DNA from: Armatimonadota bacterium
Lineage (GTDB): Bacteria > Armatimonadota > UBA5829 > JAUSEB01
Length of the DNA stretch: 48,801 nucleotides
Assembly (NCBI GenBank): GCA_030649165.1
Contig: JAUSGG010000231.1
Coordinates: 1 to 48,801 of the forward strand
Direction: 5' to 3'
Under the pieces are notes generated by a model. That model searched no databases. It saw nothing but the letters and a program-made list of their open reading frames with translations, and was not told where the DNA came from. Shown here piece after piece: positions 5,348 to 30,735 of the stretch. The translations under genes were made by a program, and so were the position numbers. Every line of letters starts with the position of its first letter. Within the stretch, counting starts at the first letter, position 1.

Positions 5348-5631
5348 GAATGGTTGGTGGTTGATGGTTGTTAGTTGTCAGTTGAGAGAAACCCCACCCC
5401 AGCCCTCCCCTGAAAAGGGAGGGAGTGGCCCCCAGCCAAACTGTTCACTGTTTACTGGTCACCGATAGCGACCCCACCCCAGCCCTCCCCTGAAAGGGGA
5501 GGGAGTGGCCCCCGGCCAAACCATTCACCGTTCACTGCTCACTGATAGCGACCCCACCCCAGCCCTCCCCTGAAAGGGGAGGGAGTGGCCCCCGGCCAAA
5601 CTGATCACTGTTTACTGGTCACCGATCACTG
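5348..5631. repeat. Heptamer tract plus three 80-bp tandem repeats upstream of motA
   Basis: Positions 5348-5387 are degenerate heptamers (GGTTGATGGTTGTTAGTT type). They are followed by three near-identical 80-bp units at 5391-5470, 5471-5550 and 5551-5631. Each unit contains an ACCCCAGCCCTCCCCTGAAA...GGGGAGGG hairpin plus a heptamer tail (GTTCACT, GTTTACT, GCTCACT). Units 1 and 3 share the same tail type. The array fills most of the gap between the divergent STN-protein gene and motA. Confidence 0.85.
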
Positions 5632-24718: not shown

Positions 24719-25084
24719 TTGATAGATAGAACCGAGTTGGAGAAGCTTGACGCTATTCGCAGCCGGCTCAACGTGAGCTACGAAGAAGCTAAGACGGCGC
24801 TGGACGAAACCGGGGGTGACGTGGTGAAAGCGTTGGCCAGGCTGGAGGCCAGCGGCCACGATATCCTCTCCCTCAGCGCCGAACTCCTCGAAGAAGCCCA
24901 GAGACTGATCGGCGCCCGGACGCCAAAAAAGCTGCGAGTCAAGTTCGGCGGCAGACTCGTCAAGGAATTTCCTCTCGCTCTTACCGCAACAGCCGCCTTC
25001 CTGCTCGGTATGGCCGCTGTGCTCGTCACCAGGGCAAGCCTTGAGATCGAACGAGAACAGGAATCGGAAACACAAGAACAATGA
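24719..25084 (+). CDS. DUF4342 / UBA-like domain protein
   Basis: The protein has 121 residues. The N-terminal ~45 residues form a UBA-like three-helix module (LNVSYEEAKTALDETGGDVVKAL), and the C-terminal ~70 residues contain the DUF4342 core (KKLRVKFGGRLVKEFPLAL) with one membrane helix (TATAAFLLGMAAVLVTRA). Family members are small membrane-associated proteins of unknown role, common in Firmicutes and relatives. The start is TTG at 24719. The stop overlaps the sigma factor start (ATGA), so the two are translationally coupled, which may hint that it influences the sigma factor; that is inference. Confidence 0.8.
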   Translation: MIDRTELEKLDAIRSRLNVSYEEAKTALDETGGDVVKALARLEASGHDILSLSAELLEEAQRLIGARTPKKLRVKFGGRLVKEFPLALTATAAFLLGMAAVLVTRASLEIEREQESETQEQ

Positions 25085-25767
25085 AAGCGATCGATTTGAT
25101 TGGAAGCCAACTCCCGGAGCAGCGCAAAACCGCACAAACCCGCTACACTTTTATGACAGACCAGGAGATCGTCGAATGCGCGCAGTTCGGCGAGGACGCC
25201 GCGGCCGAATATCTGTTGTATAAGTACCGGAGCCTCGTGCGCACCAAAGTCAGATCATATTTCCTCATGGGCGCGGAAAAAGAAGACCTGCTGCAGATCG
25301 GCATGATAGGTCTCTGGCAGGCGACCATAGACTACCGTGCGGACAAGGAGATCTCGTTCCTCTCGTTCGCCAGGATTTGCATAGAACGCCACGTGATTAC
25401 CGCGATCAAGACGGCAACCCGCCAAAAGCAGACTCCTCTGAACACGTCGGTCTCGCTCGAATACCCGTCCGAGGACAGCGAATCGGAATGGAACCTGGCT
25501 GAGGTGCTCGTTGCCGACGACACCGTGGATCCCGAGGAGTTGGTTTTGAGGCGCGAAGACACCCGCCGGCTTCAGGAGATGCTCCGGAGACTGCTCAGCG
25601 ATTTTGAATGGAGTGTGCTTGCCGGCTACCAGGTCGGCAAGTCCTATCGAGAGATTGCGTCGGAGCTGCGCTGCAAGACGAAGTCGGTGGACAACGCCCT
25701 GGCCCGCATCAAGCGCAAGGTTTCGTGCACGCCCTACGTATGGCCCGGCGTCAGCGACAATAACTGA
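25081..25767 (+). CDS. sigH: RNA polymerase sigma factor, SigH-like (sigma-70 family)
   Basis: The protein has 228 residues. Region 2 includes AEYLLYKYRSLVRTKVRSYF and the core-binding and -10 recognition helix DLLQIGMIGLWQATIDYR. IERHVITAIKTATRQKQTPLN is almost the B. subtilis SigH sequence. Region 4 with the helix-turn-helix is VGKSYREIASELRCKTKSVDNALARIKRK. In Firmicutes SigH drives stationary-phase and early sporulation genes; in non-sporulating phyla it serves as an alternative sigma factor. It is coupled to the upstream DUF4342 gene by an ATGA overlap. A shorter start at ATG 25153 is possible. The octamer repeat begins directly after the stop. Confidence 0.88.
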   Translation: MKAIDLIGSQLPEQRKTAQTRYTFMTDQEIVECAQFGEDAAAEYLLYKYRSLVRTKVRSYFLMGAEKEDLLQIGMIGLWQATIDYRADKEISFLSFARICIERHVITAIKTATRQKQTPLNTSVSLEYPSEDSESEWNLAEVLVADDTVDPEELVLRREDTRRLQEMLRRLLSDFEWSVLAGYQVGKSYREIASELRCKTKSVDNALARIKRKVSCTPYVWPGVSDNN

Positions 25768-25849: not shown

Positions 25850-26431
25850 ATGAGCATAATCGAACGCTGCACCGGCTGCGCCACCGAGATTCCATCATCA
25901 CGGGCTTCCATAGGACGGTTATTGCCGTCCGTCGCGCGTGAGGCCGTCAAGACCGTTGCGCTCACGGCGTTGGTATTCCTGTTCACCGTGAGCTTTATCG
26001 CGCAGGGATATGAGGTGTTCGGGAACTGCATGGACCCGAATCTCCGGACCGGGGAACGCCTGCTGGGAAGTAAGCTGGCGTACCGACTACACATGCCTTC
26101 ACGCGGCGATATCGTCGTTTTCAAATGCCCCGCGAATGAGTCGCAGATCTACGTCAAACGTGTGATCGGGCTTCCCGGGGAGTTGGTCGAGATACGGCAG
26201 GGGGCCGTTTACGTGAACGGCCGCCGGCTCAGGGAATCCTATCTGATCCACGCGCCTCATGGGAGCTACGGTCCCAGCTTGATCAAGCCGGGCCGCCTGT
26301 TTGTGATGGGTGATTACCGCGACTGCAGCAACGACAGTCGGTACTGGGGTCAGCTCGCCCTTTCCGAGGTCCAGGCAAAGGCGTGGGTGCGGTACTGGCC
26401 GATTAAGCGGGCGGGATTCTTAGGGTTATAG
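25850..26431 (+). CDS. lepB: Signal peptidase I-like protein with Cys at the nucleophile position
   Basis: This is a 193-residue S26-family membrane peptidase with one N-terminal membrane anchor (about residues 28-50). The nucleophile motif, normally G-x-SM-x-P-x-L, reads GNCMDPNL here, with Cys60 (codon TGC) in place of Ser. The general-base Lys is present (YVKRVIGLPGE, Lys103), spaced as in type I peptidases. Box D (DIVVFKCP) and box E (MGDYRDCSNDSRYWG) are intact. The enzyme would cleave signal peptides at the outer face of the inner membrane; whether the Cys form is active is not known. GGAGG lies 7 nt before the ATG. The last residues, FLGL, and the stop TAG are encoded by the start of an AGGGTTAT octamer repeat. 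Confidence 0.85.
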   Translation: MSIIERCTGCATEIPSSRASIGRLLPSVAREAVKTVALTALVFLFTVSFIAQGYEVFGNCMDPNLRTGERLLGSKLAYRLHMPSRGDIVVFKCPANESQIYVKRVIGLPGELVEIRQGAVYVNGRRLRESYLIHAPHGSYGPSLIKPGRLFVMGDYRDCSNDSRYWGQLALSEVQAKAWVRYWPIKRAGFLGL

Positions 26432-26875: not shown

Positions 26876-27059
26876 TGAGGTTTATGAGGTTTATGAGGGT
26901 TTCAGGGTTCTAAGGGTTCTAAACATGGAACCCTTAGAACAGTATGACCCTATGACCCTATGACCCTAAGACCCTAAGACCCTAAGACCCTAAGACCCTA
27001 AGACCCTAAGACCCTAAGACCCTAAGACCCTAAGACCCTAGAACCTTAGAACCCTGAAA
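26876..27059. repeat. Octamer array, including 12 units of ACCCTAAG type
   Basis: GGTTTATGA octamer/nonamer units (26871-26900) and AGGGTTCT units are followed by 12 tandem 8-bp units at 26947-27042: two ACCCTATG, nine ACCCTAAG and one ACCCTAGA. Degenerate AACCTTAG/AACCCTGA units come next. It is a likely length-variable locus just upstream of the dnaE promoter. Confidence 0.95.
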
Positions 27060-27183: not shown

Positions 27184-30100
27184 GTGCAGTCGCCTGGGTT
27201 TGTTCATCTTCATACCCATTCTGAGTTCAGCCTTCTCGACGGCGCCTGCCGCATAAAGGACCTGGCCAAACTCGCGGCCGAACAGGAGATGCCGTCTCTT
27301 GCCCTGACCGACCACGGTTTGATGTACGGAGCGATCAGCTTCTACGAGGCGTGCCGGGACCAGGGCGTAACTCCCATCATAGGCTGCGAAGTGTATGTGG
27401 CGCCCCGAAGCCGCACTTCGCGAAATCCCAAGCTCGATTCCGACCCGCATCATCTCGTGCTCCTGGCGGAGAGCATCAAAGGCTACAAGAACCTGCTGAA
27501 ACTCGTCTCCGCGGCATCGGTCGAGGGGTTTTACTACAAACCACGGGTGGATAAGGAGCTGTTGGCGCAGCATAGCGAAGGGTTGATCGCGTTGACCGCG
27601 TGCCTGGCCGGAGAGGTCCCCAGGTTTTGTGTAAAGGGCGACCTGGATGGCGCGCGCAAGGCTACTGCCGAATACCGCGAGATATTCGGCCGGAACAATC
27701 TCTACATCGAAATCCAGGAAAACGGCCTGGAGGAACAGAAGACCGCAAACGCCGGGCTGATCGAACTGGCGCGCGAGTTGTCTCTTCCCCTCGTGGCGAC
27801 GAACGACATCCATTATCTCCGCAAAGAGGACGCCTCCGCCCACGATGTGCTGCTCTGCATCCAGACCGGCGCGACGATAGACGATCCAAACAGGCTGCGG
27901 TTCGGCTCGCAGGAGTTTTTCTTCAAGACGGCCCAACAGATGGCCGAGGAGTTCGCGGATTATCCGGAATCTCTGGCGAACACTCTGGAGATTGCTTCGC
28001 GCTGCAAGGTCGAGTTGGACTTTTCCAGGCTGAACCTGCCGGGAGTGGAGGTCCACGACGGTCTGGACGCCGACGGATATCTCGAACAGCTCTCTCGGGA
28101 GGGACTTGCCAGGCGTTATCCCACGGTCACCCCGGAGATAGAAGAGCGGCTCAGAATCGAGCTGGATACCGTCAAGAAGATGGGTTACCCGGACTATATG
28201 CTGATAGTGCGGGACTTCGCCCGATTCGCTCGCGAGCGAGGCATATACGTCGGAATGCGCGGTTCGGCGGCGGGGAGCATCGTCTGCTATGCTTTAGAGA
28301 TCACCGACGCCGACCCTCTTCTTTACGGGCTGCCGTTCGAGCGGTTCCTCAACATAGAGCGCGTTTCGATGCCGGATATCGATATGGATTTCCAGGATGA
28401 CCGCCGCGACGAGGTCATCAGATACGTTACCGACAAGTACGGCGAAGACCACGTGGCGCAGATCGTCACCTTCGGGACGCTGGCCGCTCGGGCGGCCGTG
28501 CGGGATGTCGGCCGCGTTCTAGGAGTGCCGATAAACGAGGTGGACAAGATCTGCAAGATGATCCCCACGATCCCCATCGGCATTTCCATCGACCAGGCCA
28601 AGGAGGAGAACCCCGAGCTGAAAGCGGCTTACGAAGGTTCGGACACCGTTAAGAACCTGATGGACACGGCCTGCCGCCTGGAAGGTATCTGCCGCCATGC
28701 CAGCACGCACGCGGCCGGGGTCATAATCTCCCACGCCCCTCTGACCGAACACGTGCCGGTCGCAAAAGCGAGCAAGGGTGAGATCGTCAGCCAGTACGAC
28801 GCCCACGCGCTGGAGCTGCTCGGACTGTTGAAGATGGACTTTCTTGGCCTCGCGAACCTCACGACGCTGGCCCGGGCCGTCCAGAACATAAAGAAGCAGA
28901 AGGACGTCGAAGTAAGCATCCTGTCACTTCCGCTCGATGACGGGGAAACCTACGAGATGCTGGGAGCGGGGCACACGACAGGGGTGTTCCAGCTTGAAGG
29001 CGCGGGGATGCGCCGCTACATACAGGAGCTCAAGCCGGGGTCGATGAAAGAACTCGCGGCGATGATCGCTCTCTATCGCCCAGGACCGATGAATAGCATT
29101 CCCAAGTATATCAAGTGCAAACAGGGCCAAGAGCCGATCAAATACCTGCACCCGTGCCTGGAACCGATACTGAAGGACAGTTACGGCGTCGTTGTGTACC
29201 AGGACGACGTGATGTTTATCGCGCGCGCCGTGGCAGGCTTTTCGCTGGGCCAGGCAGACATCCTGCGCCGGGCTATGGGCAAGAAGAAGAAAGAGGAAAT
29301 GGCCAAGCAGCGCAAGCGGTTCCTCGCGGGCGCGAAGGAAAACGGGATTTCCGAGAAGATCGCCGTTCAGATATTCGACCTCGTCGAGCCGTTCGCCGGG
29401 TACGGTTTCAACAAAGCCCACGCGACGTGTTACGCGAACGTGGCCTACCAGACCGCTTATCTGAAGGCGCATTACCCCGTCGAGTATATGGCGGGGCTTT
29501 TGGCTACAAACGTTGACAACAAGGACAAGATCGCCCTGTACGTCGAGGAGTGCCGGCGGCTCGGCATTACGGTCCTGCCGCCGGACGTCAACAAGAGCGA
29601 GGTGGACTTCACGGCGGAGAGAGAGGACATCAGGTTCGGTCTGGGCGCGATCAAGAACTGCGGACGCGCCATAGTCGACGCGGTTATAGCCGCTCGCGAG
29701 ATCGGCGGGCCGTTCAGGTCGCTGTATGACTTTTGCGACCGGGTGCAGGATTCGACTTCTGTGGGAAAGGCAATGGTGGAGTGCCTCATTCGAGCGGGCG
29801 CGTTCAGCTCGATAGACGAGAACCGGGGCAGGCTGCTTGCGATGCTGGACGAAGCCATGGCGCACGCCGCGAAGGCGCAGCGGGACAGACGCAGCGGGCA
29901 GACCGGCTTGTTCGGGGACATTCGCGAGAGCGAAGAGTTACCGGCTGCAAAGACATACATGTCCATTGCGGACATGCCTCGTGAAGAGATACTGGCTATG
30001 GAGAAGGACCTCCTCGGCCTCTATGTCACCGATCATCCGCTGATGCACGTGCGCGAATGCCTGGCGCGCGAGACGACGGTGAACTCCGAACAGCTTGCGG

Positions 30101-30735
30101 AGATGGACGATCAGCAGGAATGCGTGATCGGCGGCATCATCTCCACGCTTCGCTACCACACGACCAAGCGCGGCAACGAGCAGATGGCGTTCCTGACCCT
30201 GGAGGATTTGTCGGGAAAGATATCGGTCACGGTGTTTCCGTCGGCATTCAAGACGTGCTCGGAAGCGCTGGTGAAGGACAAGATAGTTATCATCAAGGGC
30301 AAGGTCAGTCATCGGGAGCGCATCGGGCAGGACGACGACAAATCCCACACCGCCGAGGTTATCTGCGAATCGGTGAGGGCTTTGAACGGGGACGGCGGTA
30401 TCGGGAAAGATGTCCCCCCAAATGACGAGCAAGAGGCGGAGGTTTCGGGACGAGGGCGTCCCGAAACAACAGAAGAGGCCCCGAACGGTAACGGCGGGCA
30501 AGACACCTCGGGGGCGGCTGTCCACATCCGTCTAATCAACGCAAGCGCGGGGGATCTGGCGCTTCTCAAGAGAGTCTTCAACGATTATCCGGGGGAGACG
30601 GAGGTCCATTTTCATGTCGAATCAGCAAGTTCCGGCACGACGAGGGTTTCCACGGATATCCGCGTGAACGTGTCAGATGACTTTCTGGCCGAGGTGCAGC
30701 AATTGGTGGGGCAGGGGATGGTGAGGGCGGAGTAG
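27184..30735 (+). CDS. dnaE: DNA polymerase III subunit alpha
   Basis: This is the 1183-residue catalytic subunit of the replicative polymerase. Order: PHP domain (FVHLHTHSEFSLLDGA, residues 5-20 onward), palm with the catalytic Asp pair in PDIDMDF (Asp398/400/402) and the third Asp near 552 in KMDFLGL, thumb and fingers, a helix-hairpin-helix region, and a C-terminal OB domain (about 975-1065, VIGGIISTLRYHTTKRGNEQ). A low-complexity linker (about residues 1080-1110) and a final small domain follow. The linker contains a perfect palindrome at DNA level. Length and order fit the standard DnaE1 type. GTG start at 27184 with GAGGGGA about 11 nt upstream. Confidence 0.97.
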   Translation: MQSPGFVHLHTHSEFSLLDGACRIKDLAKLAAEQEMPSLALTDHGLMYGAISFYEACRDQGVTPIIGCEVYVAPRSRTSRNPKLDSDPHHLVLLAESIKGYKNLLKLVSAASVEGFYYKPRVDKELLAQHSEGLIALTACLAGEVPRFCVKGDLDGARKATAEYREIFGRNNLYIEIQENGLEEQKTANAGLIELARELSLPLVATNDIHYLRKEDASAHDVLLCIQTGATIDDPNRLRFGSQEFFFKTAQQMAEEFADYPESLANTLEIASRCKVELDFSRLNLPGVEVHDGLDADGYLEQLSREGLARRYPTVTPEIEERLRIELDTVKKMGYPDYMLIVRDFARFARERGIYVGMRGSAAGSIVCYALEITDADPLLYGLPFERFLNIERVSMPDIDMDFQDDRRDEVIRYVTDKYGEDHVAQIVTFGTLAARAAVRDVGRVLGVPINEVDKICKMIPTIPIGISIDQAKEENPELKAAYEGSDTVKNLMDTACRLEGICRHASTHAAGVIISHAPLTEHVPVAKASKGEIVSQYDAHALELLGLLKMDFLGLANLTTLARAVQNIKKQKDVEVSILSLPLDDGETYEMLGAGHTTGVFQLEGAGMRRYIQELKPGSMKELAAMIALYRPGPMNSIPKYIKCKQGQEPIKYLHPCLEPILKDSYGVVVYQDDVMFIARAVAGFSLGQADILRRAMGKKKKEEMAKQRKRFLAGAKENGISEKIAVQIFDLVEPFAGYGFNKAHATCYANVAYQTAYLKAHYPVEYMAGLLATNVDNKDKIALYVEECRRLGITVLPPDVNKSEVDFTAEREDIRFGLGAIKNCGRAIVDAVIAAREIGGPFRSLYDFCDRVQDSTSVGKAMVECLIRAGAFSSIDENRGRLLAMLDEAMAHAAKAQRDRRSGQTGLFGDIRESEELPAAKTYMSIADMPREEILAMEKDLLGLYVTDHPLMHVRECLARETTVNSEQLAEMDDQQECVIGGIISTLRYHTTKRGNEQMAFLTLEDLSGKISVTVFPSAFKTCSEALVKDKIVIIKGKVSHRERIGQDDDKSHTAEVICESVRALNGDGGIGKDVPPNDEQEAEVSGRGRPETTEEAPNGNGGQDTSGAAVHIRLINASAGDLALLKRVFNDYPGETEVHFHVESASSGTTRVSTDIRVNVSDDFLAEVQQLVGQGMVRAE
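30442..30467. repeat. Palindrome inside dnaE linker
   Basis: GTTTCGGGACG (30442-30452), a 4-nt loop AGGG, then CGTCCCGAAAC (30457-30467): a perfect 11-bp stem within coding sequence. It encodes VSGRGRPET in the variable linker before the last domain. Confidence 0.85.

Follow-up and report, generated by a model that had tools for sequence, protein, structure and literature searches.

The Cys-type signal peptidase gene and its surroundings

The window, that is, the whole stretch of 48,801 nucleotides of an Armatimonadota genome that was analysed, contains an open reading frame starting with ATG which encodes a homologue of type I signal peptidases, called Cys-SPase in the following (Table 1). 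Its product scores above the curated thresholds of both PF10502 (Peptidase_S26; 141.4 bits, cut-off 22.9) and the NCBIfam model sigpep_I_bact TIGR02227 (135.4 bits, cut-off 47), and below that of the TraF conjugative signal peptidases, TIGR02771 (32.9 bits, cut-off 100.25). At the sequence level, the nearest relatives of solved structure come from Bacillus anthracis, Staphylococcus aureus and Enterococcus, all of them compact signal peptidases. An AlphaFold2 model (pLDDT = 90.6), for which the window protein was aligned with 37 named relatives, predicts a helix at residues 21-50, presumed to be the membrane anchor, followed by a beta domain. Compared to the PDB with Foldseek, this model retrieved SpsB with its substrate peptide, the E. 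coli signal peptidase and SipA, all with a probability of 1.00; the best matches (4wvi, 3iiq and 4n31) point to a predicted signal peptidase I fold, with its beta structure and N-terminal membrane helix.

The original prediction, according to which a Cys (Cys60) occupies the nucleophile position together with an intact general-base Lys103 and an intact GDYRDCSNDSR box, agrees with the sequence. Among the marks of the S26A serine peptidases, the Ser nucleophile in its SM motif is thus missing in all the orthologues described below, the general-base Lys of box D (KR) is present as K103 and R104 (23/23 full-length members) and box E, GDxRxxSxDSR, is invariant (23/23). The replacement of Lys by His that characterizes the Ser-His enzymes of the endoplasmic reticulum (ER) and archaea is not found, since all members have Lys, and neither is the SipA-type loss of both the nucleophile and the Lys. 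By sequence and fold, Cys-SPase is inside the type I signal peptidases, but outside their serine catalytic type.

Table 1 Features of the Cys-SPase locus, in coordinates of the window
Feature	Position	Strand	Support
ubaTM, 121 aa, UBA-like N-terminal part and hydrophobic C-terminal segment	24719..25084	+	weak TIGR00264 match
SigH-type sigma factor, 228 aa, next gene upstream	25081..25767	+	NCBIfam SigH PRK08295.1-5
Cys-type signal peptidase I homologue, 193 aa	25850..26431	+	ORF, PF10502, TIGR02227, predicted fold
N-terminal helix, residues 21-50, holding the presumed single membrane anchor	25910..25999	+	AlphaFold model; hydrophobic stretch
Cys60 codon TGC, nucleophile position, context GNCMDPNL	26027..26029	+	sequence; Cys in 24/24 orthologues
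Lys103 codon AAA, general base position	26156..26158	+	Lys in 23/23 of the Cys clade and 101/101 others
His137 codon	26258..26260	+	20/23 Cys forms; scattered in Ser forms
GDYRDCSNDSR box, omega region of type I signal peptidases	26309..26341	+	box residues invariant in Cys clade
dnaE, DNA polymerase III alpha, downstream neighbour	27184..30735	+	Pfam; synteny, family f1 only

The gene immediately upstream had been described as encoding a SigH-type sigma factor, and its match to NCBIfam SigH PRK08295.1-5 (238 bits, cut-off 208) confirms this. The product of the preceding gene, ubaTM, weakly matches the C-terminal (UBA) part of TIGR00264 and has no Pfam match. Between Cys-SPase and dnaE lies an array of about 12 telomere-like GACCCTAA octamers (26946-27055), and short arrays related to these octamers, AGGGTTCC and AGGTTTATG, occur in further intergenic regions. 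Another repeat, at 5391-5626, consists of an 80-base unit that occurs three times in tandem and has a palindromic core (GGGGAGGG/CCCTCCCC).

Distribution of the Cys form in the phylum

Cys-SPase orthologues were found in 24 of the 291 genomes of the phylum, corresponding to 15 genera and 9 families. A profile search of these genomes yielded 23 full-length loci (at least 212 bits) and a truncated one, and all the paralogues scored 179 bits or less. The nucleophile is Cys in every orthologue, the truncated one included, which goes far beyond what chance would give. Similarly, when 60 related genomes were searched at the protein level, the 14 next best matches from other genomes (L007-L020) all have Cys, as xCMEPxL. 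At the DNA level, a strict pattern (G-x-C-M-[DE]-P-x-L-x-x-G-E-R) had matches in 21 of the 291 genomes and its reversed control in none; the pattern picked up the truncated orthologue and overlooked two orthologues that read GECMQPHL, in which the Cys is nevertheless present. Close relatives might all have been expected to carry Ser if the Cys were peculiar to this genome, but the opposite is observed, and the natural Cys form that had been postulated does exist, in 15 genera. The Cys codon of the full-length orthologues is TGC in 16 cases and TGT in 7, and the use of both indicates conservation of the amino acid rather than of the nucleotides. A sequencing or assembly error in a Ser codon, a worry raised by the single-base change that would yield Ser, can be dismissed, as the same residue was recovered, with different codons, in 24 separately assembled genomes.

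Phylogeny and conservation

Cys and Lys are found in all 23 full-length members of the Cys clade when these are aligned to a profile together with other S26 homologues, and the 101 homologues outside the clade comprise 100 sequences with Ser and one with Ala, all of them with Lys. A tree of 124 sequences, reconstructed by a quick method with SH-aLRT branch supports instead of bootstraps, separates the 23 Cys forms from the rest by a single branch (SH-aLRT = 99), nested amid Ser forms from Chloroflexota, Acidobacteriota, Bacillota and others; the long-branch caution given by the tree program concerns one other row. The usual PSxSM paralogues of the phylum, such as L003 from the same genome, are placed away from this clade. 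The simplest reading of this topology is that the Cys at the nucleophile position arose once.

Besides Cys60, residues M61, P63, K103, R104, G154, D155, R157, S160, D162, S163 and R164 are invariant in the clade (23/23). Two residues before the Cys, G58 is found in 23/23 Cys forms, compared to Gly in 45/101 of the other sequences, and G53 (20/23), E69 and D158 are other marks of the clade. His137 is also largely conserved, at a position where the Ser forms display a mixture of residues. No second invariant Cys was found among the 15 sequences compared for this purpose, so Cys60 has no conserved disulphide partner. Pairwise dN/dS ranges from 0.007 to 0.25 in nine close pairs, a tenth pair being saturated: Cys-SPase is under purifying selection.

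A signal peptidase paralogue from the same phylum (L028, G034:C92:10484-10954) has Ala at the nucleophile position (STAMRPVL) and retains the Lys; it is probably either catalytically dead or a form that binds substrates.

Search beyond the phylum

No Cys form was seen among the matches listed for 80 named loci from other phyla. A looser Cys pattern (G-x-C-M-x-P-x-L-x-x-G-[DE]), which covers one motif style and which other Cys forms could escape, had 4 matches in 400 Chloroflexota, 284 Bacillota and 282 Acidobacteriota genomes. Three of these (L187, L188 and L219) were rejected as Cys forms because they are not signal peptidases. An Acidobacteriota open reading frame (L220, 1194-2027, minus strand; VSGECMRPGLVAGDAVRL...RLHRLV) remotely resembles S24/S26 proteins, has a Cys and has no Pfam match. 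It is flanked by a PqqD-looking frame on one side and a nucleotidyltransferase-looking frame on the other, and it may represent a Cys form of independent origin within a peptide-modification locus.

Gene neighbourhood and SigH

The gene order that emerges from the 21 loci compared is cvpA - ubaTM - sigH - (glyQ) - Cys-SPase - (glyS, dgt or dnaE). The sigH gene is upstream of Cys-SPase in 17 of these loci, directly in 8 of them and with glyQ in between in 9, and ubaTM is kept upstream of sigH in 11. The association with SigH that the original prediction put forward is therefore real and old, but it is not an obligate partnership: relatives devoid of Cys-SPase keep a sigH (67-80% identical), often accompanied by ubaTM, and in some of them dgt or glyQ-glyS comes directly after it. 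Two peptidase-free genomes have their flanking genes directly joined, as ubaTM-sigH-dgt (G024) and as ubaTM-sigH-glyQ-glyS (G046). Since sigH persists in relatives without the peptidase, SigH is independent of Cys-SPase. The comparison of these loci suggests that the Cys-SPase gene has a fixed and old place, from which it has probably been lost several times. An ancestral Ser form residing at this very place was also considered and rejected, since none of the short loci compared from peptidase-free relatives has a Cys-family S26 gene beside sigH.

A sporulation role through SigH was discarded as well. No Spo0A domain was detected in the genome, with a positive control in Bacillus subtilis, and this SigH is thus not the Bacillus sporulation switch. 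More generally, SigH-type sigma factors are widely retained in the phylum, several relatives having two or three copies, and ubaTM lies directly upstream of sigH in many of its genomes.

Coexistence with Ser-type signal peptidases

The search for a second lepB in the same genome (G000), suggested in the original prediction, revealed two further copies, both of the Ser type: one, with PSGSM, lies on contig C174 and the other, with PSESM, on contig C175. Each of the 24 genomes with a Cys form likewise encodes one or more Ser-type LepB proteins, and the Cys enzyme is thus an additional signal peptidase. It is also dispensable, given that 267 of the 291 genomes lack it, either through loss or because they never acquired it. 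Because a Ser-type LepB is always found alongside, a narrow substrate range, as originally proposed, is plausible for Cys-SPase. By contrast, a special redox niche finds no support, since COX1-family (PF00115) oxidases are encoded in 18/24 genomes with Cys-SPase versus 179/267 of the others; across the 291 genomes Cys-SPase is no commoner where COX1 is lacking, and an anaerobic or redox specialisation was rejected on this ground.

Proposed mechanism and alternative explanations

Cys-SPase is likely to be an extra type I signal peptidase with catalytic activity, based on a Cys-Lys dyad. The single N-terminal helix would hold the enzyme in the membrane and leave its catalytic beta-barrel domain on the outer side. 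Lys103 would deprotonate Cys60, and the resulting thiolate would attack a Sec or Tat signal peptide at its cleavage site, of the Ala-X-Ala type, to form a thioester acyl-enzyme, which would then be hydrolysed by water as in the Ser forms. The Ser-Lys LepB copies would handle the bulk of the work and the Cys enzyme would probably serve a subset of preproteins or run slowly. An active enzyme is favored because Lys103, the Met and Pro of the CMxP motif and the whole box are retained in 23/23 members, and a dead enzyme needs none of them. What counts against Cys-Lys activity is that an extracytoplasmic thiol is oxidisable and that most genomes with the Cys form encode a COX1-family oxidase.

Alternatively, the fold could bind export substrates or partners as a chaperone, the Cys not being a nucleophile. 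SipA, involved in pilus assembly in Streptococcus pyogenes, would be the precedent: it has a signal peptidase fold similar to the one predicted here (TM-score 0.77-0.81, by target length) and an altered nucleophile position. In this protein Asp replaces the Ser and Gly the Lys; it lacks peptidase activity and persists as a non-peptidase, and the Asp conserved at its Ser position is unnecessary according to mutagenesis (PMC4049620). The presence in all cases of a Ser-type LepB to carry out the real cleavage would be congruent with such a role. Nevertheless, it seems unlikely for Cys-SPase, in which the Lys and all the catalytic-box residues are invariant whereas SipA has lost the Lys, and in which all members have Cys at the nucleophile position instead of random residues.

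Another possibility is that an amine, and not water, resolves the thioester, so that the enzyme would cleave proteins and then join them as sortases do. The replacement of Ser by Cys is known to shift other serine proteases towards aminolysis; thiol-subtilisin cleaves and then joins proteins in the test tube. In addition, one study names an acyl-transferring Cys-Lys dyad for LipB (PMC9307952). Yet, neither an acceptor substrate nor a sorting signal nor a neighbour gene of this kind is conserved at the locus, and the predicted fold and groove resemble those of ordinary signal peptidases, which makes a transpeptidase or ligase improbable. Its boldest version, a signal-peptide-dependent transpeptidase that would attach or join exported proteins with His137 aiding catalysis, is a speculation to which we give slightly less credit still.

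Finally, the conserved Cys might have another job, in a metal site, a disulphide with a partner or a lipid attachment, any of which a free extracytoplasmic thiol could perform; but the lack of a second invariant Cys and of a lipobox context, together with the exact nucleophile position and the retention of the neighbouring Met and Pro, leaves this explanation very little room.

Comparison with known systems and significance

In existing descriptions, type I signal peptidases rely on Ser and Lys (or Ser and His). SpsB from Staphylococcus aureus and SipS from Bacillus (S26A), which represent the compact type of Gram-positive bacteria, belong to the same family as Cys-SPase and share with it the single membrane helix, the general-base Lys, the MxP and GDxRxxSxDSR motifs and the predicted fold. 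Contrary to them, the Cys-SPase clade has Cys for the nucleophilic Ser, an invariant G58 and a conserved His137. The signal peptidases of the ER and archaeal type (Sec11, SipW), from the same superfamily, present the reverse situation: they keep the Ser and replace the Lys by His, whereas Cys-SPase keeps the Lys and replaces the Ser. The same substitution at the same position exists in a laboratory mutant, the engineered Ser90Cys E. coli leader peptidase, which reportedly retains activity; unlike this mutant, Cys-SPase occurs in nature, is old within its clade and evolves under selection.

A 2026 survey of the superfamily presents its members as serine proteases with a Ser-Lys dyad (PMC12984324). 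No natural Cys-type signal peptidase I was found in the open-access literature searched. The change from Ser to Cys is moreover invisible in databases, because annotation pipelines label the protein as a plain signal peptidase I.

If its activity is confirmed, the maintenance of the Cys over at least 9 families would mean that a Ser-Lys dyad can naturally become a working Cys-Lys dyad. The 24 natural sequences are a resource for asking why Ser is otherwise almost universal in the family, and they also make it possible to ask about the rate, the substrate choice and the acyl transfer of thiol forms. They further raise the question of whether Ser-directed inhibitors would miss such forms.
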